31,559 nt of DNA. It comes from a virus. The position numbers and the translations under genes were made by a program. Shown here in pieces: positions 3,819 to 22,031 of this stretch. Within the stretch, counting starts at the first letter, position 1; each line of letters starts with the position of its first letter. The stretch spans positions 1 through 31,559 of the IMG/VR virus record IMGVR_UViG_3300024356_000027. One strand, 5' to 3'. Under the pieces are notes generated by a model. The model saw nothing but the letters and a program-made list of their open reading frames with translations, was not told the origin of the DNA and searched no databases.

Positions 3819-4001
3819 ATGCCGCTCATCTACCTTCGTCATCCCCGTCACGGGGTCAAAATTGCGTCTTTGGACATGGAGGCGGATTATGATGAGCAGC
3901 ATGGCTGGGAGCGGTATACTCCGGGTGAAGAACCTGTGAACGAGTTGCGTAAGCGCAGCCGTCCTCGAAAGGAACCCGAACATGCCGACAACGGCGGGTG
4001 A
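3819..4001 (+). CDS. small hypothetical protein
   Basis: A 60-residue protein with a hydrophobic N-terminus (MPLIYLRHPRHGVKIA), an acidic centre with HGWERY, and a highly basic C-terminus (RKRSRPRKEP). The ATG at 3819 is taken. A TTG at 3807 is the alternative, and neither has a clear ribosome binding site. It overlaps the next gene by 20 bases, and that gene's ribosome binding site lies inside it, which suggests translational coupling. Function unknown; the setting is the head-tail connector. Confidence 0.6.
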   Translation: MPLIYLRHPRHGVKIASLDMEADYDEQHGWERYTPGEEPVNELRKRSRPRKEPEHADNGG

Positions 4002-4695
4002 TCAGATCAATCGTGCCCTGCGCTTGCTGGGCGTTTTGGCCGAGGGCGAAACCCCCTCTGCTGCGGTGTCGCAGGATTCGCTCACCGCGCTGAATCAGAT
4101 GGTGGAATCGTGGAACATCGAGCGTCTCTCGGTGTTCTCAACGCAGGACCAAGTGTTCACTTGGCCTACCAGCACCATCAGCCGCACGTTGGGTCCGACG
4201 GGTGATTTTGTCGGCAATCGACCTGTTTTGCTTGATGACGCGACGTACTTCCGCGATCCAAGCACCAATGTCAGTTTTGGCGTCAAGATCATCAACCAGC
4301 AGCAGTACAACGGGATCGCGGTCAAGACCGTGACCTCAACGTACCCGCAGGTGCTGTGGGTCAACATGACCTACCCCGACATTGAGATGTACATCTACCC
4401 GGTGCCCACGCGGTTGCTGGAGTGGCATTTCGTGTCAATCGAAGAACTGACCAACCCGGCAACGCTGGCGACCACGCTGGCCTTCCCGCCGGGCTATCTG
4501 CGAGCGTTTGCGTACAACCTGGCGATGGAAATTGCACCGGAGTTCGGTGTTGAGCCGTCGCCGCAGGTGCAGCGTATCGCCATGACCAGCAAGCGCAACC
4601 TGAAGCGCATCAACAACCCTGACGATGTGATGAGCCTGCCGTACTCGATCGTAGCGACGAGACAGCGCTACTCAATCTACGCGGGCAATTATTAA
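3982..4695 (+). CDS. tail accessory factor, P22 gp4-like
   Basis: A 237-residue protein starting with the typical TAGDQINRALRLLGVLAEGE segment and ALNQMVESWNIERLSVF. These are characteristic of the P22 gp4 tail accessory / packaged-DNA stabilisation family. In P22, gp4 binds below the portal ring after DNA packaging and is the platform for gp10. The start ATG has AAAGGA 8 bases upstream. Its TAA stop is shared, through the palindrome TTAA at 4692-4695, with the stop of the minus-strand HNH gene. In canonical P22-like order gp10 follows directly; here an HNH gene, a tailspike and a small gene intervene. Confidence 0.88.
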   Translation: MPTTAGDQINRALRLLGVLAEGETPSAAVSQDSLTALNQMVESWNIERLSVFSTQDQVFTWPTSTISRTLGPTGDFVGNRPVLLDDATYFRDPSTNVSFGVKIINQQQYNGIAVKTVTSTYPQVLWVNMTYPDIEMYIYPVPTRLLEWHFVSIEELTNPATLATTLAFPPGYLRAFAYNLAMEIAPEFGVEPSPQVQRIAMTSKRNLKRINNPDDVMSLPYSIVATRQRYSIYAGNY

Positions 4696-12565: not shown

Positions 12566-13941
12566 TGCCTATCAATCCCGCTATCGCAATGGGTGTCCGG
12601 GGTATCGAACTCCAAGACCCGTTGGCGCAGTATGGCCGCGTCGCCGCGATCCAGAACGCCCAGCAGCAGAACATGCTCGCGCAGCAGCAACTGGCGCAGG
12701 CTCGTCGAGCGGAGGAGCAGCAGAACGCGTTGAGCGCAGCGTATCAAGCGGCGTACAACCCTGAGACGGGTGACATTGACGCCAACCGTCTGCGTAGCAC
12801 TCTGGCGAGCAGCGGGTTTGGGGCGCAGATTCCCACCGTAGAAAAAGCGCTGGGTGAGTTGAGAACCCAGCGGCTGACACAGACAAAAACAGAAACCGAT
12901 ATCGCCAAAGGACAAACCGATCTGCTTGATGCAAGACTTAAGCAGGCCAGGAGTTTCCTTGACACGATCAACCCTAACGATCCAAACGCGCCTGCTCAGT
13001 ACATGGCGTGGCATCAGGCTAACCATGCTGACCCCGTGATCGGCCCAGCGTTGGCACGGCGAGGTGTCACCGCAGAACAGTCTATGGCGTCGATTCAGCA
13101 AGCAGTTCAGGCCGGTCCGCAGGCGTTTGCCGAGTTGTTGGAAAGGTCTAAACTTGGCAATGAAGAATTTATGCGGTTGAATAAACCCATAGTGTCCACT
13201 CGCAACTTGGGTAAAACGACCGAAACAAGCCTGATTTCGCCGCTGACGGGTGACGTTCGCAAAGTCGCTACGGAAACCAACACGATTGCTCCCGCTGACG
13301 CAGAGCGAATCAAACTGGAAGGCCAGCGCGTCGGTCTGGAAGGCCGGCGGGTGGCGATAGCGCAAGAAAACCAACGCCGCGAGGCAGACCCGGCGTTTCA
13401 GCAGGCTATGGAAGCGGCGCGTACGATTGGGCGCAAGGCTGCAGAGGGTGATGTGGCCGCTGCACAAGCGCTGCCAAAGGCTATTTCTCGCGCAGAGGAA
13501 GGTGTTCGTTTGATCGACGAACTGATCGGCAAGCGCGACGCGAATGGCAACCTTGTCAAAGGCGCTAAACCGCACCCTGGCTTTCAAAATGCTGTCGGTG
13601 CGACCTGGCTTCCCGGCCTTCGCTTTGTGCCGGGCACAGACGCCGCTAGCTTCATGTCCCGCTTTGATCAGATCAAAGGCGCGTCGTTTCTTGAGGCGTT
13701 TGAATTTCTTAAGGGCGGCGGCGCTATTACGGAAAAAGAAGGTACAAAAGGCACGGACGCTATCAACCGCATGTCGATTGCCACGGATGAAAAAGAATTT
13801 ATCCGCGCTGCAATGGACCTTCAGGAAGTCATGCGTAAAGGCGTAGAGAACATCCAGCGACGCGTAGCCCAGCCTGCCGCCGCTCGCCCAGCGGCAGCAC
13901 CGGCTGCTGGAGACGGATGGTCTGTAGTGAGACCGCGATGA
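12565..13941 (+). CDS. DNA ejection protein 2 (gp20-like position)
   Basis: A 458-residue, mostly helical, Gln/Ala-rich protein. The N-terminus has repeated AQQQNMLAQQQLAQARRAEEQQ; the middle has KLEGQRVGLEGRRVAIAQE; and the C-terminus has FEFLKGGGAITEKEGTKGTDAINRM, a segment I associate with phage injection proteins. It ends in Ala/Pro-rich low complexity and WSVVRPR. Start and stop overlap both neighbours (TGATG, ATGA). Placement between gp7-like and the largest ejection protein suggests the gp20 role. Sequence identity with gp20 itself is not claimed. Confidence 0.75.
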   Translation: MPINPAIAMGVRGIELQDPLAQYGRVAAIQNAQQQNMLAQQQLAQARRAEEQQNALSAAYQAAYNPETGDIDANRLRSTLASSGFGAQIPTVEKALGELRTQRLTQTKTETDIAKGQTDLLDARLKQARSFLDTINPNDPNAPAQYMAWHQANHADPVIGPALARRGVTAEQSMASIQQAVQAGPQAFAELLERSKLGNEEFMRLNKPIVSTRNLGKTTETSLISPLTGDVRKVATETNTIAPADAERIKLEGQRVGLEGRRVAIAQENQRREADPAFQQAMEAARTIGRKAAEGDVAAAQALPKAISRAEEGVRLIDELIGKRDANGNLVKGAKPHPGFQNAVGATWLPGLRFVPGTDAASFMSRFDQIKGASFLEAFEFLKGGGAITEKEGTKGTDAINRMSIATDEKEFIRAAMDLQEVMRKGVENIQRRVAQPAAARPAAAPAAGDGWSVVRPR

Positions 13942-16043
13942 CAGACCAAATCTACAAAGTACGCGATCCGCAAGGCAACATCCGGGAAATTAAAGGTCCG
14001 GCTGGCGCAAGCGACGAAGAAGTTATCGCTCAAGCGCAACGACTTTTTGGTGCGCCTCAACCGACATTGCCGGAATCATTGCGTCGCCCTGAGCCTGCTG
14101 CCGCTGCTGCACCCTCCGAGGTGCCAATCGGTCGTCGAGTCATTCAGTTTGTGCGGCCAACGGTTGAAGCTCTCGGTGGTGCTGGTGGTGCGCTGCTAGG
14201 CGGCGCTGCGGGTACGTTCGGCGCAGGGCCAATCGGCACCATCGCCGGCGGCATGACCGGCGCTGGCCTTGGGTACGGTATTGCCAAAGGTGGCCTTGAC
14301 GTACTTGAGCAGCAATTAGGCTATACCAAACCACCCGCGTCGGTCAGCGAAGCAGTCATCGGCGGCGTCAAGGATGTCGCCACGGGCGCAGCCGAGCAGG
14401 GCGTTGGCGCGGCGCTGGGACCGATCATCGCCAAGGGCGCTCAAAAAGTTGTTGGTCTTGGTACGTTCTCCAAAGACAAAGCGGCCAACATCGCCCGAAA
14501 CGCTCTTGGCCCGGATCTTCCCGAGGTATTGAACGCACTCAAGGCCGCACAAGGTCAAGGCGTCAGCGCAGCGCAGGCGACTGCGAACATCAACAGCCCA
14601 ACCTGGCAGGCGCTCATTGATCGAGCGACGGCACGCGATCCTCGATTCTTGCAGGCGCTTGAGAAGTCTCAGGGTGAAGTGTCGCTTAACGCGCTGTCCA
14701 AACTCGCCAGCGGCGCGACTGCGACCGAAGTCCGTGCGTACACCGAAGGTATGAAGCGCGGTCTAAACACGGTGCTGGAGCCGGTCAAGGAAGAAGCACT
14801 CAAGCGCGGCAATCTGGGCCGCAACGTCGCTCAATACGAGGCGCAGGCCGAAGCCCTTCGCGCTGGCGCTACCGGCAAGGTTGAAGATGTCCGCCGTCTG
14901 GTTCGGGCTGGCGAAGTAGCCGGTGAAGCGGCCCAGAAGGGCTTCCCGAAAACGCCAAGCGGCGAACTGATCGGATTGCCCCGCATCGCCGGGAAATACA
15001 CCTATCCGGGCGAACTTGCCGAAGCTGCAGACCGGTGGGCGTCTGACGCGGCAAAGGCGTCGCTTGATCTTGGTCAAGGCGCAAGATTTTCTCAAAGCGC
15101 TGCCGACGCCCTTCGCAACTCAGGCATCAAACCGCTTGAGAGCGCCCCCTTGATCGCCAAGGTACAAGGGCTTACTGCAAACCCCGAGTTCGCGGGCAAC
15201 GATGTCATGCAGGCTGCGGTAACTAACCTGTCCCGTGACATTGCCGAATGGACTGGCAAGGGTGGAATCATCGACGCTCGCGCTTTGGACGCCATCCGCA
15301 AGAACTCGGTCAACGCGGCGGTGCGGGATCTGCTGAAGGGTCAAGACCCGTCGATCCAGCGCGAGGCGGCGGCGTCCGTCATGACGCGCATTAAACCCGC
15401 CCTCATCAACGCGATTGAGGACGCCGGCGGTGTCGGTTATCGGCAGTACCTTGAGGACTACGCCAAAGGTATGCGCCAGATTTCTGAGAAGAAACTGACC
15501 GGCGAAGCGCTGAAGCTGTGGAAAACGAACAAAGACGAGTTTGTTCGTCTGGTGCAGGGCGAAGCGCCGGAAGCAGTTGAGAAGATCCTCGGGCGCGGCA
15601 ACTACAACATCGCGCAGGAACTAACCGACGACACGCTGTCGGTGCTGCAGCAGCAGGCGCAGAAACGCCTTACTGAACTGTCAGTCAAGGGCCAAGTGAC
15701 TGCAGGTCAAGAAGCGCTGAAGGAACTACTGCTCGACAATATGTCGAAGTTCAGACTGCCGTCCTACCTGAGCGCCCTTTCCTCAACAACGAATCGAGCG
15801 CTTGCGATTCTTGAAAATAAGATCGGCAGGAATACAATGACTGCGCTGACCGAATCGCTCAAGACACCGGGCGGGGCGGCGCAGTTGTTGGAGACTCTAC
15901 CCGCTGCTGAACGCAATCGGGTTCTGAAGTTGTTGAACAACCCGAATCAGTGGAAACCTACAACCCGCGCAGCAGTTGGTGGTGCGGTGTCGGGTGCAAC
16001 AAACGCGCTTGCTCCTGAATCCGAAAACGCTCTCGCTCAATAA
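13938..16043 (+). CDS. large DNA ejection protein (gp16-like position)
   Basis: A 701-residue protein. Residues 1-40 (YKVRDPQGNIREIKGPAGASDEEVIAQAQ) match a small repeat-like domain common at the N-terminus of large phage internal proteins. Residues about 60-135 are Gly/Ala-rich (GGAGGALLGGAAGTFGAGPIG) and could insert in membranes. The remainder is helical with coiled segments. No lytic transglycosylase motif was found. ATG at 13938 in an ATGA overlap is preferred over the upstream codon at 13917, which would overlap the preceding gene further. It is probably the third ejected protein that helps DNA cross the inner membrane. Confidence 0.75.
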   Translation: MTDQIYKVRDPQGNIREIKGPAGASDEEVIAQAQRLFGAPQPTLPESLRRPEPAAAAAPSEVPIGRRVIQFVRPTVEALGGAGGALLGGAAGTFGAGPIGTIAGGMTGAGLGYGIAKGGLDVLEQQLGYTKPPASVSEAVIGGVKDVATGAAEQGVGAALGPIIAKGAQKVVGLGTFSKDKAANIARNALGPDLPEVLNALKAAQGQGVSAAQATANINSPTWQALIDRATARDPRFLQALEKSQGEVSLNALSKLASGATATEVRAYTEGMKRGLNTVLEPVKEEALKRGNLGRNVAQYEAQAEALRAGATGKVEDVRRLVRAGEVAGEAAQKGFPKTPSGELIGLPRIAGKYTYPGELAEAADRWASDAAKASLDLGQGARFSQSAADALRNSGIKPLESAPLIAKVQGLTANPEFAGNDVMQAAVTNLSRDIAEWTGKGGIIDARALDAIRKNSVNAAVRDLLKGQDPSIQREAAASVMTRIKPALINAIEDAGGVGYRQYLEDYAKGMRQISEKKLTGEALKLWKTNKDEFVRLVQGEAPEAVEKILGRGNYNIAQELTDDTLSVLQQQAQKRLTELSVKGQVTAGQEALKELLLDNMSKFRLPSYLSALSSTTNRALAILENKIGRNTMTALTESLKTPGGAAQLLETLPAAERNRVLKLLNNPNQWKPTTRAAVGGAVSGATNALAPESENALAQ

Positions 16044-17268: not shown

Positions 17269-17398
17269 TTTTGTTCTCCAAGGTTGTGATGCGCGTGTCC
17301 AGTTTGGCTAGCGCACGGTCGGCGCGGTTGCGGGCCAGCGTCCACTGACGCCGTTCCTTCTTCGCTGCCTTCAGTTTCGCAAGGTAAAGTTTTACCAT
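17207..17398 (-). CDS. small basic coiled-coil protein
   Basis: A 63-residue protein, very basic at the N-terminus (VKLYLAKLKAAKKERRQW) with a heptad region (ALAKLDTRITTLENKIAHLE). ATG at 17398 is chosen because GGAGG sits 6 bases upstream and the frame before it overlaps the helicase. It starts inside the last codons of the helicase, so it is translationally coupled. A DNA- or helicase-associated role is possible, but there is no recognised family. Confidence 0.65.
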   Translation of the reverse strand: MVKLYLAKLKAAKKERRQWTLARNRADRALAKLDTRITTLENKIAHLEITQQRTGAHDRAAGA

Positions 17399-18723
17399 TT
17401 TAGTTCCTCCAGCGCAATGTCGCTGATCGCCCGCTTGTCGTTGAGCGCCGCCCAGATGCGCTCGTCGATGGTCTTGTTGGTCATCAGGAGGTAGCACCAG
17501 ACGGGATGGCGCTGACCGCTGCGGTGCAGACGTCCGACGGTCTGCTCGTAAAGCTCAAGGCTCCAAGGCAGGGACAGAAAGACCATGTGGCAGCCTCCGT
17601 GCTGCAGGTTAAGGCCGTGACCAGCGGATTTCGGGTGCACTGCCAGTAGTCGAACCTTGCCAGCGTTCCATCGTCCAATGGCGTCAGGGTCGTCCAGTAC
17701 GGTGAGGTGGGCGTAGCGTCGCTTGAGTTCTTCAAGTTCTTCCTTGTAGTTGTAGACCAGCAGTGTGTTGGCCTGCTGGTTTTCGTTGAGCAGTTCATCG
17801 AGCCGGTCGAACTTGTGACTGCTGAACCACACTGCGTTCTGTGTGGATGTGAACTTGCCAGGCCGCGCCGGATCAGGCGCGGCTGTCGTGCTGTAGACGA
17901 ACCCGGACGACATCTGCTGCAGCTTGCTCGTCACGACCGCCGCGTTAGCGGCGATGGCGGTGAGGCTGTCGAACTCCACCACGAAGTCCTTCTTCATCTT
18001 GTCGTACTGCGTGCGGTCCATGTCGCAGCGCAGTTCAACAGTGTTCAACGGCGGCAGCATGTTGGTGTACAGACCGCCCTGCAGCAGATAGGTGGCGGGC
18101 CTGATTTTTGCCATCACCTGCTCAAGTGCGCCCTTGCGCGGTGTCCAGTCGCCAAACTCCTTGTTCAGACAGACGAAATACTGCTGCAGGAACGCGCCCT
18201 TGCTGCGGCCCAGCAGGGTCTGGTCGATGATCTTGCACTGGCCGAAGCAGTCCTCCAGTCCGTTGCTGGTGAACGAACCGGTCAGACCCCAGCGGATAGG
18301 GCACTCAAGAATCTTATGCAGCGCCTTGAATCTCTTACCGGAAGGATTCTTGAGCCGTGTCAGTTCATCAAACACCACCGCGTCGAAGTTCAGATCCTGC
18401 TCGGCCAGCCACTGCAGATTGTCGTAGTTGGTCACCACCACCTGCGCCTGGCCCGTCAGCGCCGCTTTGCGGACGGCGGGCGAACCGACGGCGACGGCTA
18501 GCGTCAGCGCCGGCGCCCACTTGGGCTGCTCGACAGGCCAGACATCCGTACAGACACGCTTGGGGGCCAACACGAGGAACCTGTGGGCAACGCCTTCCCG
18601 GATGGCGTCTTGCATGGCTGTGAGCGTGATGGCGGTCTTGCCTGCGCCCACTGGCGCTAGGATCATGGCGCGGTCATGCTCAAACAGGAAGTCAGCCGCT
18701 TCTTCTTGGTACGGTCTTAGCAT
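17392..18723 (-). CDS. SNF2-like DEAD/DEAH superfamily 2 helicase
   Basis: A 443-residue protein with superfamily 2 motifs: a Q-like start (RPYQEEAADFL), Walker A APVGAGKT at 23-30, motif II VFDELTRLKN at 117-126 (DELT in place of DEAH, as in SNF2-like phage helicases), motif III LTGSF near 153, a second RecA domain, HPKSAGHGLNLQ as motif V, and motif VI QTVGRLHRSGQ near 394-404. It is an ATP-dependent translocase on double-stranded DNA. Similar stand-alone phage proteins are proposed to act in replication or recombination. It follows the winged-helix gene after an 86-base gap that holds a plus-strand terminator. Confidence 0.92.
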   Translation of the reverse strand: MLRPYQEEAADFLFEHDRAMILAPVGAGKTAITLTAMQDAIREGVAHRFLVLAPKRVCTDVWPVEQPKWAPALTLAVAVGSPAVRKAALTGQAQVVVTNYDNLQWLAEQDLNFDAVVFDELTRLKNPSGKRFKALHKILECPIRWGLTGSFTSNGLEDCFGQCKIIDQTLLGRSKGAFLQQYFVCLNKEFGDWTPRKGALEQVMAKIRPATYLLQGGLYTNMLPPLNTVELRCDMDRTQYDKMKKDFVVEFDSLTAIAANAAVVTSKLQQMSSGFVYSTTAAPDPARPGKFTSTQNAVWFSSHKFDRLDELLNENQQANTLLVYNYKEELEELKRRYAHLTVLDDPDAIGRWNAGKVRLLAVHPKSAGHGLNLQHGGCHMVFLSLPWSLELYEQTVGRLHRSGQRHPVWCYLLMTNKTIDERIWAALNDKRAISDIALEELKW

Positions 18724-18773
18724 ATACTTAGTTGTCCGCTCTCTCCCGGACGCTCCTTAGTGGTTGCATGGCT

Positions 18774-18807
18774 GGCCCCGCTGGTGCGAATCAGCGGGGT
18801 CTTTTTT
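18774..18807 (+). terminator. intrinsic terminator facing the plus strand
   Basis: CCCCGCTG (18776-18783) pairs with CAGCGGGG (18792-18799). Two more pairs outside and one G-U pair inside give about 11 bp around a 6-base loop, followed by six T (18802-18807). In this orientation it ends plus-strand transcripts. On the minus strand no T-run follows the stem, so the surrounding early operon should read through it better. Confidence 0.8.
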
Positions 18808-18809
18808 CG

Positions 18810-19385
18810 TCAGAACCAAGCCGCAGCCGGGTCACGCCGGGGCTTGATAGTGGTCGGCCTTTTCTCGGCCATGGCACGCTTGTTCTGGATCGTCTTTTTG
18901 CACAGCACGGGCACGACCTGGATGGCGTCAGGCTCGCCGTTGGCTAGACCATAGAGTCGCATCGTCGTCCCCTTGGCGGGACGCCAGCCTGCGATCCTGA
19001 TCTTGTCGAGCGCGTGCAACTCGTGCAACGACCTGCGGGTAAAGGCCAGTGAGTAGCCGCTCTCGACGGACAGTTCGCTCACGCTCATCATCGGCTCACG
19101 TTCAAGGGCAGCGAGGATACGTTTAGTGCAGAGAACTTCCCCGGTAATGACTGTGGGAAACGCATTGAGACTCTTGCCAGTCCAAGCGTAAACACCGGCC
19201 TTGTTGCCGCCAAGTGGTGGGTGGGGCAAGTAGCGAATAACCCGCACGTAGCCCCCTCGCTTGAGTTCGGCAAGTGCAGACTTAACCGTGCCGTTGCCTT
19301 GCTTAAACAACTTGACCATCTCGGCAACGGTCATCTGTTTGCCCATCATCAAATTCTTCAGGATTCGCTCTTTACAGTACGCCAT
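18810..19385 (-). CDS. winged-helix DNA-binding protein
   Basis: A 191-residue protein with two helix-turn-helix-like repeats: residues about 5-60 (ILKNLMMGKQMTVAEMVKLFKQGNGTVKSALAELKRGGYVRVI) and about 88-140 (RILAALEREPMMSVSELSVESGYSLAFTRRSLHEL). Each is followed by a wing-like strand, and the tail is basic (KRPTTIKPRRDPA). The layout suggests a tandem winged-helix regulator or replication accessory protein. ATG at 19385 has GAGG four bases upstream. A longer frame reaching 19613 overlaps the upstream gene and is out of character. It overlaps the previous gene by 14 bases. Confidence 0.75.
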   Translation of the reverse strand: MAYCKERILKNLMMGKQMTVAEMVKLFKQGNGTVKSALAELKRGGYVRVIRYLPHPPLGGNKAGVYAWTGKSLNAFPTVITGEVLCTKRILAALEREPMMSVSELSVESGYSLAFTRRSLHELHALDKIRIAGWRPAKGTTMRLYGLANGEPDAIQVVPVLCKKTIQNKRAMAEKRPTTIKPRRDPAAAWF

Positions 19386-19662
19386 GTTTCCTCGCAGGGC
19401 AGGTTCGGCCTTGGTTGCAGTTGTTGTTGCAGGGTGGACATGAGCGTTCGCGGACAACCCGGATGCAGTCCTCGATGGTCGCCCGCTGAATACCTTTGGT
19501 GCCGCCGTACACGTGCATATCGGCAAGGTCTTTGCAGATGGCCTCACGTTCGGCAGCGGCGACAAGGGCTGCGAAGCGTTCAAGGTATTCCGGCAGCGGC
19601 TCTTGGTCGTCATCGAACAACCCGGCCTGATGCGCCATGCGGGTGATGTCGTCGCGGTTCAT
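19372..19662 (-). CDS. small conserved phage hypothetical
   Basis: A 96-residue protein of a pattern I recognise from many environmental phages: NRDDITRMAHQAGL at the start, then EYLERFAALVAAAEREAICKDLADM, and RATIEDCIRVVRER. The C-terminus has four Cys (SCPPCNNNCNQGRTC). No enzymatic function is known. The ATG lies in an ATGA overlap with the preceding gene. It is probably coupled to the small Cys-rich proteins around it. Confidence 0.75.
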   Translation of the reverse strand: MNRDDITRMAHQAGLFDDDQEPLPEYLERFAALVAAAEREAICKDLADMHVYGGTKGIQRATIEDCIRVVRERSCPPCNNNCNQGRTCPARKHGVL

Positions 19663-20015
19663 GCGTTTCGCTCCTTCAGCGCGGCTTGCAGAGAGGAGAT
19701 GGCTTTCTCAATGGTTGCGTGCCCATGCCAATGCTGCGCGTTTGCGAACCACAACGCTTCAAGCGCCTGCTGGGCGGCGGTTCTTAGGATCGACACCGGC
19801 TCCTGCTCCGGTTGCGAGCAGTGGTGCCCGCACCTCGGGCAGTCAAACTCTTTGAGCGCCTCTTGGTAGTTGTCCCAGGCTTGTTTTAGACCTGCTTTCA
19901 TGCATTCCTCGCACCCACGCTTGCCACATACCCGGCACTCGTCGTACCAGCGGCCACACTGGCTGCACTTGATGCCGGCCCAGAGCGGGTGGCTGCAGTG
20001 TTCGCATCCCATCAT
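19659..20015 (-). CDS. Cys-rich zinc-ribbon protein
   Basis: A 118-residue protein with eleven Cys in the first 66 residues, mostly as CxxC pairs (C4/C7, C17/C20, C27/C30, C35/C38, C59/C62), so at least two zinc sites are likely. The C-terminal half (ILRTAAQQALEALWFANAQHWHGHATIEKAISSLQAAL) is the helical domain that recurs in many phage hypotheticals. The ATG lies in an overlap with the stop of the preceding 56-residue gene. It has no signal peptide. The function is unknown, and nucleic acid or protein binding by the ribbons is an inference. Confidence 0.78.
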   Translation of the reverse strand: MMGCEHCSHPLWAGIKCSQCGRWYDECRVCGKRGCEECMKAGLKQAWDNYQEALKEFDCPRCGHHCSQPEQEPVSILRTAAQQALEALWFANAQHWHGHATIEKAISSLQAALKERNA

Positions 20016-20182
20016 TGCTCCCTCGCACGGACGATCTTCTCGGCCTCACGCTGGCGGTCGAGGTCGCTCTTGTTCTCAACGTCAATTTGGTCGATCAACG
20101 CCTCAAATTCTCTGCACTGTCTGCATTTGTGGCATTGCTTATCACAGCGCCGGTAGATTTTTGTTGACCACTTCTCGTTCAT
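20012..20182 (-). CDS. 56-aa Cys-cluster protein
   Basis: A short frame between the methyltransferase and the zinc-ribbon gene: MNEKWSTKIYRRCDKQCHKC, then RQCREFEALIDQIDVENKSD and a charged helix. Cys at 13, 17, 20 and 23 could bind one metal. It starts in an ATGA overlap with the methyltransferase stop and ends in an ATGA overlap with the next start, exactly the operon's spacing rule, which supports it as a real gene. Function unknown. Confidence 0.72.
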   Translation of the reverse strand: MNEKWSTKIYRRCDKQCHKCRQCREFEALIDQIDVENKSDLDRQREAEKIVRAREQ

Positions 20183-21339
20183 TTTAGATACGCCTCTATG
20201 AATGCTTGCGCGACTTGCGGGACGATGGCGTTACCGTAGGCGCGCAGTCGTCCCACTCGATTGGCAACCCCATGAGCCAGCGGGAATGTGCCGGGTTCAA
20301 CTGGCCTCCACTTCCCGTCGCGGCAGTAGAGCCAATCTGCATCTCGCCAGTGGCCGTTAGTCGGGCCGGGCCGTCGAGGTCCGTCAAGAACATCACCGCC
20401 TGCTTGGACACAGGCGACTTGCTGCCGCCCTTTCTCGCCCACTCGGTTTTCATGCTTTCGTAGGACCGACGACTGTGGTTGTCGTCCGCCACCGATGGCG
20501 TCCCCCAGCCCGTCAAGTTCGCCTGGCGAGGCAACTGATCCAAGCGTAGCGATCCGTCCGATCTCGGCTTGATGTCCGCACCCGAGTCCTTCCAGTCTCT
20601 TGTTGTTGTTGTTGTCCACCCCGCCAACGTCGATGCCATCCCCAGCGTCATCCCGAACCCGTTGTGGCCGTGTCCATACCTCGCTTTTACTTCCGCTCGC
20701 CGTTGCTCCCAACGAGAGTCCGTGTCGTTCTGCGGCCCCGCATTTGGCGTCGGCCAGCCCGTTAGCCAGGTTGATTTCGGCAGTGAACTCTGCTTTCGTC
20801 CAGGCGCTTGCGATTGCCCCGCTCTCGCGTCCTCGGCGTTCGGAGTCGGCCACCCAGTAGAGTCGCTGTCGGATGTGCGGCGCACCGACGCCCGCAGCGC
20901 ACAGATCGGATGCTGCGCTGGCGTAACCCGATCCTTCCAAGTCAGTCTGTACAAGGTCGAGCCAAGCGAGACCGTCCTTGCTTGCAACTTGTTCGCCAAA
21001 GACGACTGGAGGGCGGCACTGGCTGATGAGCCAGTGGAACGCGGGCCATAAGTGCCGCTCGTCATCAAACCCAACACCTTTGCCTGCCGCGCTGAAAGGT
21101 TGGCATGGGCATGATCCAGTCCAGACTGGTCTGTCGTCAGGCCATCCGGCAAGTCGCAACGCCCGGCTCCAGACTCCGATGCCTGCAAAGAAGTGACACT
21201 GGGTATACCCGGCAAGTTCATCTGGTCGAATATCTTCAATTGATCGCTCATCCACTACTCCTGGTGCAATGTGCCCCGCCGCAATAAGGTTTCGCAACCA
21301 CTGCGCGGCGTACGGGTCGATCTCGTTGTAAAAGTTCAC
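20179..21339 (-). CDS. DNA cytosine-5 methyltransferase
   Basis: A 386-residue C5-MTase with motif I HFFAGIG (about 50-56), motif IV GSCPCQPFS (catalytic Cys about 79), and motif VI as GEQV (115-118) where most enzymes have ENV. It also has motif VIII APHIRQRLYWVAD (about 154-165) and motif X AYGNAIVPQVAQAFI near the end. It transfers methyl from SAM to DNA cytosine, probably protecting phage DNA. GTG 21339 is chosen because GGAGG lies 9 bases upstream and it makes a GTGA overlap. The region between motifs VIII and X has ADSERRG / LADAKCG / LGDAIGG repeats and carries another ORF in the +1 frame. Confidence 0.92.
   Translation of the reverse strand: MNFYNEIDPYAAQWLRNLIAAGHIAPGVVDERSIEDIRPDELAGYTQCHFFAGIGVWSRALRLAGWPDDRPVWTGSCPCQPFSAAGKGVGFDDERHLWPAFHWLISQCRPPVVFGEQVASKDGLAWLDLVQTDLEGSGYASAASDLCAAGVGAPHIRQRLYWVADSERRGRESGAIASAWTKAEFTAEINLANGLADAKCGAAERHGLSLGATASGSKSEVWTRPQRVRDDAGDGIDVGGVDNNNNKRLEGLGCGHQAEIGRIATLGSVASPGELDGLGDAIGGGRQPQSSVLRKHENRVGEKGRQQVACVQAGGDVLDGPRRPGPTNGHWRDADWLYCRDGKWRPVEPGTFPLAHGVANRVGRLRAYGNAIVPQVAQAFIEAYLK
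20196..21251 (-). CDS. overlapping ORF nested in methyltransferase gene
   Basis: 351 codons lie fully inside the methyltransferase gene, in the +1 frame of the same strand. ATG 21251 has its own AGGAG 6 bases upstream. The protein has STLYRLTWKDRVTPA, ALRASVRRTSDSDSTGWPTP, four GW-(P/T/G)-T-(P/T) repeats, and a C-terminus GGQLNPAHSRWLMGLPIEW. From memory these resemble a widespread family of phage proteins coded beside or across cytosine methyltransferases, some of them not overlapping (LTWK..., GLWPTP..., LNP..VEWLMGFP). That makes a chance ORF less likely. Function unknown; a partner of methylation is an inference. GC-rich constraint from the main frame could also create it. Confidence 0.65.
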   Translation of the reverse strand: MSDQLKIFDQMNLPGIPSVTSLQASESGAGRCDLPDGLTTDQSGLDHAHANLSARQAKVLGLMTSGTYGPRSTGSSASAALQSSLANKLQARTVSLGSTLYRLTWKDRVTPAQHPICALRASVRRTSDSDSTGWPTPNAEDARAGQSQAPGRKQSSLPKSTWLTGWPTPNAGPQNDTDSRWEQRRAEVKARYGHGHNGFGMTLGMASTLAGWTTTTTRDWKDSGADIKPRSDGSLRLDQLPRQANLTGWGTPSVADDNHSRRSYESMKTEWARKGGSKSPVSKQAVMFLTDLDGPARLTATGEMQIGSTAATGSGGQLNPAHSRWLMGLPIEWDDCAPTVTPSSRKSRKHS

Positions 21340-21575
21340 TCGCCACGACCTCCGCATTCGCTACAGACAGATCCGTCATACGCTCCCTCGCCCGAGCCAT
21401 TGCAGGCAGAGCAGACGCCTTCGTCATCTTCATCATCGCGGCCAAACCAGTCCATCAGCCGCTTCAATCGGATCTCGATCAGCTTCTCATCGACTTCACC
21501 ATAAGGATTGCCCAGCCACGCATTGTGCAGGCTGGTGACCAGCCTGTGCATGTGTTCATACTCTTTGTTCACCAC
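21336..21575 (-). CDS. small protein with DnaJ-like Cys motifs
   Basis: A 79-residue protein: an N-terminal helix (EYEHMHRLVTSLHNAWLG), an amphipathic middle (EKLIEIRLKRLMDWFGRDDEDDEG), and at 54-79 CSACNGSGEGAYDGSVCSECGGRGE. The latter has two CxxCxGxG-type repeats as in the DnaJ zinc-finger domain, with one zinc site expected. The start is GTG (21575 or 21572) with GAGGAGG just upstream. Both ends overlap neighbours. Function unknown. Confidence 0.72.
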   Translation of the reverse strand: MVNKEYEHMHRLVTSLHNAWLGNPYGEVDEKLIEIRLKRLMDWFGRDDEDDEGVCSACNGSGEGAYDGSVCSECGGRGE

Positions 21576-21781
21576 GGTGCCTCCTCAAAGTCATCGTCCT
21601 GCTTAGGTGGCCGCGCCAGTTTTACGTCCTTTTTCGGCATGACCATCGTCACAGGGTACGGCCAGCCGTCAGGCGACGGTGCGCGAAGGCGCAACAGATC
21701 GCCATCGAGGACATCAACGACATACAGCGCTGCCTCAATCTTCGGGTGTCTGACCCAATCGCCTTGCTTTAGCCCACTCAT
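21569..21781 (-). CDS. small hypothetical, SH3-like
   Basis: A 70-residue protein beginning SGLKQGDWVRHPKIEAALYVVDVLDGDLLRL, a strand-turn-strand pattern like small beta-barrel (SH3/KOW-type) domains, then KKDVKLARPPKQDDDFEEAPW. The ATG at 21781 has GGAG 7 bases upstream; the longer frame to 21811 runs further into the nuclease gene. It overlaps VRR-NUC by 47 bases. Function unknown. Confidence 0.68.
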   Translation of the reverse strand: MSGLKQGDWVRHPKIEAALYVVDVLDGDLLRLRAPSPDGWPYPVTMVMPKKDVKLARPPKQDDDFEEAPW

Positions 21782-22031
21782 CGACCATCTCCTTTGACCA
21801 CAGAACCACATACGGCTGCTTGAGCCGTGCCATGTCCGCCGCGAACAACTTCTGCAACTCCGACAACCGCCCTCGAGGCGCTTTCAACTCCACAAACCAC
21901 ACTTGACCGTCGGGCAGACACACCACCCGATCCGCTACCCCACGCAGACCAGGCGACGTCCACTTGTACGCCTTGCCACCTAGCATCTGAACGTGCCACT
22001 TCAGATGCTGTTCGATTTCGGATTCACGCAC
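21735..22031 (-). CDS. VRR-NUC domain nuclease
   Basis: A 98-residue stand-alone VRR-NUC domain, a compact PD-(D/E)xK nuclease. It shows ESEIEQHLKWHVQMLGG at the N-terminus, GLRGVADRVV with Asp34, then FVELKAPRG with Glu48 and Lys50, and the closing SELQKLFAADM helix. Such phage enzymes may cut branched or junction DNA during replication. The start is GTG with GAGGG 5 bases upstream. It is the first gene of the minus-strand block, divergent from the replication block. I see no convincing minus-strand promoter in the 76-base gap. Confidence 0.9.
   Translation of the reverse strand: MRESEIEQHLKWHVQMLGGKAYKWTSPGLRGVADRVVCLPDGQVWFVELKAPRGRLSELQKLFAADMARLKQPYVVLWSKEMVDEWAKARRLGQTPED

Follow-up and report, generated by a model that had tools for sequence, protein, structure and literature searches.

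Bacillus phage DNA (cytosine-5) methyltransferases (C5-MTases) carry target-recognition domains (TRDs) of about 40 amino acids each between motifs VIII and IX, and the two reading frames of M.EcoHK31I overlap. M.EcoHK31I and M.AquI are split C5-MTases, in which two chains are required (PMC3404938). In M.EcoHK31I only motif IX is found on the smaller chain, with motifs I-VIII and X on the larger one; in monomeric C5-MTases motif IX lies in the small, DNA-recognising domain (PMC3404938). An artificially split M.SssI worked best with the break placed between motif VIII and the recognition domain (PMC3404938), and these natural and artificial split enzymes make a two-chain mechanism plausible. The C5-MTases of the Bacillus phages SPR, SPbeta, phi3T, rho11 and H2 have tandem TRDs and several specificities (PMC8936443).

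We analysed a virus record from IMG/VR, 31,559 bases long (the window), in which a long ORF lies wholly within a C5-MTase gene in another frame. We propose, with a probability of roughly 85%, that the two chains of a DNA (cytosine-5) methyltransferase are both encoded by this one gene, in two overlapping frames: a catalytic alpha subunit in the main frame, and a beta subunit in the nested frame that would supply a set of recognition cassettes and motif IX. The features of the locus, with predicted roles, are the following (z, conservation beyond a null that preserves the MTase).

20179..21357, minus: predicted alpha subunit, the C5-cytosine methyltransferase ORF, 392 aa
20848..21357, minus: alpha residues 1-170, the catalytic part with motifs I-VIII; the main frame is constrained here
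20365..20847, minus: alpha residues 171-331, a linker (LADA/VDNNNN/LGDA repeats) that results from reading the beta cassettes in the main frame; near-neutral, kept open
20182..20361, minus: alpha residues 333-392, the C-terminal part with motif X, RVGRLRAYGNAIVPQ
20196..21251, minus: predicted beta subunit, the nested ORF in the other frame, 351 aa, with the putative target-recognition region and motif IX
21249..21262, minus: AGGAG site and start codon (ATG) of the nested ORF, at a position that relatives do not conserve
20862..21131, minus: beta residues 41-130, the conserved N-terminal domain (NLSARQAK ... GSTLYRLTWK ... ALRASVRRTS); z 10-26, divergence 0.17-0.46 over most of it
20757..20852, minus: beta cassette 1, residues 134-165, WPTPNAED...; 88% identical to cassette 1 of L006-L008
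20619..20756, minus: beta cassette 2, residues 166-211, WPTPNAGPQNDTD...; 80-96% identity to cassettes of L009, L133 and L050 that stand at other positions
20508..20618, minus: beta cassette 3, residues 212-248, WTTTTTRDWKDSG...; identical in 37/37 aa, and in 88% of its DNA, to cassette 4/6 of L052
20301..20507, minus: beta cassette 4 and tail, residues 249-317, WGTPSVADD... ARLTATGEM...GGQ; 84% identical to L022, 77% to L195
20250..20300, minus: putative beta motif IX, residues 318-334, LNPAHSRWLMGLPIEWD; z about 45, synonymous divergence 0.068

By its described layout the pair resembles M.EcoHK31I (YGGCCR), with motifs I-VIII and X on one chain and motif IX on the other. Unlike M.EcoHK31I, for which the recognition domain is predicted on the larger chain, the window pair lacks that domain on its larger chain and has the whole predicted region, as a cassette array, on the nested one; M.EcoHK31I is also part of a restriction-modification system, whereas we recognised no restriction gene beside the window's MTase. 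In M.AquI (CYCGRG) motifs I-VIII stand on the catalytic chain, and the second chain has the distal recognition region with motifs IX and X, which is the layout of four relatives of the window (L222, L250, L254 and L255); in contrast to M.AquI, the window keeps motif X on alpha, and the gene for its second chain lies inside that for the first. The multispecific C5-MTases of Bacillus phages are likewise phage orphan enzymes with tandem TRDs, recognition being a prediction in the present case, but they are single chains read in one frame, whereas here the array is made of W.TP-led cassettes and stands on a separate chain in the other frame. Escherichia phage K1G, Paenibacillus phage Jacopo and Xanthomonas phage PhiXhv-28 carry annotations for both frames side by side, and the PHROG families 1008, 31772 and 363 alike label either frame just 'DNA methyltransferase', with neither the split nor the cassettes described. 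Our search of the open literature, with subscription papers and REBASE outside its scope, found no earlier description of a nested two-frame split MTase with exchangeable cassettes. Split C5-MTases and tandem TRDs are already known; their union in a fully nested two-frame gene appears to be undescribed in the literature searched.

A first-pass annotation of this DNA had pointed to the 351-codon, ATG-started ORF at 20196-21251 (minus), lying entirely inside the methyltransferase ORF on the same strand in a different frame, to its AGGAG 6 nt ahead of the ATG (minus-strand upstream sequence CCAGGAGTAGTGGATGAGC), and to the repeats GWPTPNA (twice), GWTTTTT and GWGTPS with their main-frame readings; all of these were confirmed. 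The nested product matches phrog_31772 (E 3e-37) and phrog_1008 (E 2.2e-29) in HMM searches, and the main product matches phrog_363 (E 2e-91). No Pfam or NCBIfam model scored above cut-off with the nested protein, its weak Pfam matches (NonGDSL and others) being rejected as far under it, and its alignment found no match in the PDB by sequence up to E 1. Homologues of the nested protein were detected by tblastn in 201 of 50,697 phage records at E<=0.001, epsilon15 among them, and N15 and K1G also carry them according to a wider tblastn listing; the same two-frame layout is present in hundreds of tailed phages and prophages. A nested protein 100% identical to the window's is also encoded on the 12.5 kb record IMGVR_UViG_3300024506_000242 (L005/L129/L269), which means that assembly yielded this virus, or a near twin of it, more than once.

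The nested frame is a real coding frame. Using methyltransferase peptide patterns alone as the query, we obtained 75 distinct full-length methyltransferases and looked in them for the nested-frame stops that the earlier annotation had named as a possible refutation of its proposal; internal stops were found in 0/75. Ten of the 75 show a single stop in that frame, which is the nested ORF's own terminus, and the third frame of the same genes has 5-28 stops. Codon shuffles that preserve the MTase give a mean of 3.9 nested-frame stops across the set, and for the window gene, with MTase protein and codon usage fixed, a mean of 4.6 with no stop-free sequence in 300. We also built a nested-frame profile from which the window and its closest relatives were excluded; on this profile the nested frame of the window reaches 399.5 bits, 16 standard deviations over the baseline of 1000 shuffles (mean 129, sd 17, maximum 187). 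Synonymous divergence, measured as third-base divergence at fourfold degenerate sites whose amino acid is shared by the two sequences compared, is 0.62-0.69 over alpha residues 1-84, mostly 0.17-0.46 (0.58 in one interval) over residues 85-180 and 0.068 at residues 349-360, the motif IX stretch, and returns to 0.55-0.70 past the end of the nested ORF. The synonymously constrained blocks coincide with the conserved blocks of the nested protein, and the anticipated reduction of synonymous variation in the methyltransferase frame is present where that protein is conserved (from about 0.65 to 0.07). The first-pass suggestion of over 1 kb of genuine dual coding is borne out by the open frame, the profile score and the synonymous constraint; the overlapping pair shows purifying selection in both frames, and the nested ORF is real and under selection.

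To locate this selection along the gene we compared substitution classes with their expectation in 269 close pairs, used in place of distant pairs, for which position-specific rates in the cassette region are unreliable from the alignment. Over motifs I-VIII, changes that alter alpha and are silent in beta occur at 0.53 relative to expectation, and those that are silent in alpha and alter beta at 3.64, which is to be read against a both-silent value of 3.44 from few sites; since 3.64 is not below 3.44, the case for constraint on the N-terminal domain of beta depends on the MTase-preserving null and the fourfold divergence. In the cassette region between motifs VIII and X, alpha-changing/beta-silent substitutions stand at 3.23, nearly equal to the both-silent 3.83, and alpha-silent/beta-changing ones at 0.42, whereas both frames are constrained in the motif IX stretch. 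Selection switches frame along the gene: it acts on alpha for motifs I-VIII and X, on beta for the cassettes and on both for motif IX. The VIII-to-X stretch of the main frame is not conserved, and since selection there sits on the nested frame, the main-frame LADA/VDNNNN/LGDA repeats are filler that is obliged to stay open. The earlier idea that the repeats tune both proteins does not fit with beta-silent alpha changes at 3.23 against 3.83. Main-frame stops within the cassettes number 2 in 31,817 codons versus 49 in 614 in relatives of type B/C, a contrast that is partly circular because the types were separated by their ORFs.

The main product matches PF00145 over residues 79-180 (Pfam, E 4.6e-12) and M.HhaI over residues 75-170. 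It contains motif I (FAGIG), IV (GSCPCQPFS), VI (GEQV, that is EQV and not ENV), VIII (APHIRQR) and X (GNAI), and with the SAM-binding motif I, the PCQ of motif IV and motifs VI and VIII it has the features of a catalytic chain. This chain contains neither motif IX nor a recognition domain; reading by eye, we found the motif IX pattern L-x-P-x5-[LI]-[MQ]-G-[FYL]-P to be absent from the main frame. Also by eye, the early motif order of alpha residues 1-95 (within 20848-21357, minus) looks permuted, with a motif II/III-like stretch, YNEIDPYAAQWLRNLI...VVDERSIEDI, standing before motifs I (FAGIG) and IV (PCQPFS); the relative L042 from a Paenibacillus phage has the usual order I-II-III-IV. Three relatives have one in-frame main-frame stop each with the nested frame intact (L072 at 4477-4479, L120 at 4321-4323 and L139 at 3837-3839), those of L072 and L139 falling in the near-neutral linker.

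The role of the nested frame is suggested by relatives in which the frames are joined differently. In L222, L250, L254 and L255 the catalytic ORF ends after motif VIII, and the nested frame runs past LNPxWVECLMGFxxGWTD into motif X (EPPRV...NRxxRLKALGNAV). L253 and L261 have a single ORF with motifs I-VIII, W.TP cassettes, motif IX and motif X, and L347 and L379 are clean single-chain enzymes with motifs I-VIII, W.TP cassettes, L[NS]PxxVExLMxxPxGWTD and motif X. In L347 no nested-type N-terminal ORF was seen, and its AF2 model aligned with M.HhaI over the whole length (Z 24.3, 226 residues, 3.2 A). The prediction of an independent family coded outside methyltransferases found no support, since every homologue locus that we examined overlaps an MTase or is fused with it in frame; the non-overlapping homologues that had been called for took only the single-chain form of L347/L379, and no standalone two-gene version without overlap occurred in about 270 loci or among phrog_1008 matches from 200 genomes. 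In L031 (2742-3693) and L032 (2880-3843), indels in the overlap seem to swap the frames and give a nested-type N-terminus with an alpha-type C-terminus; either locus may be a pseudogene or reflect a sequencing error.

At the C-terminal end of the nested protein stands a nearly invariant LNPAHSRWLMGLPxEWD, a motif-IX-like LNPxxxxxLMGxPxxW that is the most constrained stretch of the overlap and that shares its spacing (LNPAHSRWLMGLPIEW) with motif IX of the Dcm-like enzyme L348 (LTPRECARLMGFPDTF). Profile-profile comparison of the nested and type B alignments with canonical MTases returned motif X or nothing and did not recover motif IX, so the assignment of this motif rests on its pattern, on how the domains are ordered in the fused relatives and on the constraint. 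The in-frame fusions and the motif IX spacing make the recognition half (beta) the best reading of the nested ORF. The AF2 model of beta alone was of low confidence (pLDDT 61.7, pTM 0.28), and its comparison with solved structures, with no Foldseek match at E<=0.001 and a best VIA-align Z of 2.9, was set aside as uninformative; the model suggests a helix and a beta hairpin in residues 41-130, the domain that we propose docks beta onto alpha.

Between these two ends of beta lies the cassette array, a cassette being defined as the stretch between one W.TP and the next. Across 265 proteins the cassettes have a median length of 37 residues and number 0-6 per protein, with four in the window. The set contains 463 cassette pairs that are at least 85% identical; in 169 of these the N-terminal flanks are less than 60% alike, and 111 of the 169 stand at different array positions. 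Conversely, 92 protein pairs combine near-identical flanks with different cassettes. The window's own array shows the same mobility: its cassette 1 type is found at position 2/4 in L036 and 4/6 in L037, its cassette 2 type also occurs in the single-chain enzyme L347, and L052, which shares cassette 3, has an N-terminal flank only 20% alike to the window's. Types were not counted, single-linkage clustering of the cassettes having collapsed into one large cluster. In arrangement, several tandem modules lie between motifs VIII and IX, as in multispecific MTases, and by these comparisons the W.TP cassettes behave as exchangeable units that we predict to be TRDs; each may read a separate DNA site. 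L347 (3176-3508) and L379 are 88% identical overall and differ in the last cassette, which is a natural cassette replacement.

Translation of the nested frame most likely begins at a start of its own, though not necessarily at the window's exact ATG, which we rejected as a conserved start because it is not kept in relatives. These favour an ATG 6 codons downstream of it (107/137 versus 48 expected), where the window itself has ATA, and 72% of relatives, against 21% of shuffles, have a start with a Shine-Dalgarno-like site close to this position; the preference and the enrichment are what point to a separate start. The first 40 or so nested residues show no constraint.

Among the alternatives to a two-chain enzyme, programmed ribosomal frameshifting would yield one fused chain, read in the main frame for motifs I-VIII, in the nested frame for the cassettes and motif IX, and again in the main frame for motif X. 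Selection does change frame at just those borders, and single-chain relatives exist, but two shifts would be needed, and the model leaves unexplained why, ahead of the switch, the nested frame has stayed open and conserved, why Shine-Dalgarno-like starts are enriched and why the main frame stays open through the cassettes; we regard it as very unlikely. The nested protein could also be a separate regulator or accessory factor, for instance one that controls methylation or counters restriction, and not the recognition half, as its conserved N-terminal domain without an assigned fold might suggest. Its C-terminal half, however, corresponds to the in-frame VIII-to-X segment of the single-chain MTases L347, L379, L253 and L261, the nested frame is fused to motif X in four other relatives, and the alpha frame is without motif IX, all of which makes a mere regulator highly improbable. 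Accordingly, of the 'partner or regulator' of methylation envisaged in the first-pass annotation, the partner stands and the regulator does not, the fusions pointing to the enzyme's own recognition half. That the nested ORF is an untranslated by-product of a conserved, G+C-rich methyltransferase gene is scarcely credible: MTase conservation by itself does yield a baseline similarity in the nested frame (the 129 bits of the shuffles), but the observed score is far above it, the synonymous constraint tracks the nested conserved blocks and ends with the nested ORF, and the cassettes are under selection in the nested frame.

Within the two-chain reading, and with a probability that overlaps that of the reading itself, the W.TP cassettes might jointly form one recognition surface or have some other exchanged function. 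The cassettes have low confidence in the AF2 model of L347, with no confident fold, and their number varies from 0 to 6, both of which would suit such a surface; yet they sit exactly at the place of the C5-MTase recognition domain, have about 37 residues, are exchanged as units and have a precedent in the tandem recognition domains of Bacillus phage enzymes (PMC8936443), and we consider this variant unlikely, though less so than the readings above.

In the two-chain enzyme that we favour, one mRNA would give two chains from two starts. Alpha would bind SAM and provide the catalytic cysteine with motifs I-VIII and X, joined by the filler linker, and beta would dock on it through its N-terminal domain and offer about four W-x-T-P-led cassettes to the DNA major groove. 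Motif IX of beta would then complete the active enzyme, and the complex may methylate several sites, a multispecific methylation that could shield the phage DNA from host restriction enzymes. We further think it fairly probable that such genes constitute a widespread class of phage C5-MTases in which catalysis and recognition are divided between two frames, a horizontally exchanged cassette has to be open in both if it is to be accepted, and methylation specificities would be altered or added by shuffling while the catalytic gene remains intact.

The proposal would turn a long nested overlapping gene of epsilon15 and N15 into a testable enzyme model, and would explain hundreds of phage cytosine methyltransferases that seemingly have no motif IX and recognition domain. 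The cassettes would represent a natural library of exchangeable DNA-recognition modules and a route to predicting phage methylation specificity. The locus is also a clear case of two frames splitting the selective load along one gene, and bears on the origins of overlapping genes; it could have arisen by paired-indel frame switching in a single-chain ancestor or by fusion of a split ancestor.

As for the surroundings of the gene, a small cysteine-rich protein (CEHC..C..CGRW..C..CGKRGC) is encoded directly downstream of it at 19659-20015 (minus), with no convincing family match in Pfam or PHROG. At 13917-16043 (plus), beside the structural gene cluster, there is an ORF of 708 residues that has no PHROG match at E<=1e-5. 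The methyltransferase pair itself is part of a minus-strand run of DNA-metabolism genes (17392-22031), together with a SNF2-like helicase, a winged-helix HTH protein and a VRR-NUC-like nuclease, and this run stands between the plus-strand structural and replication modules.
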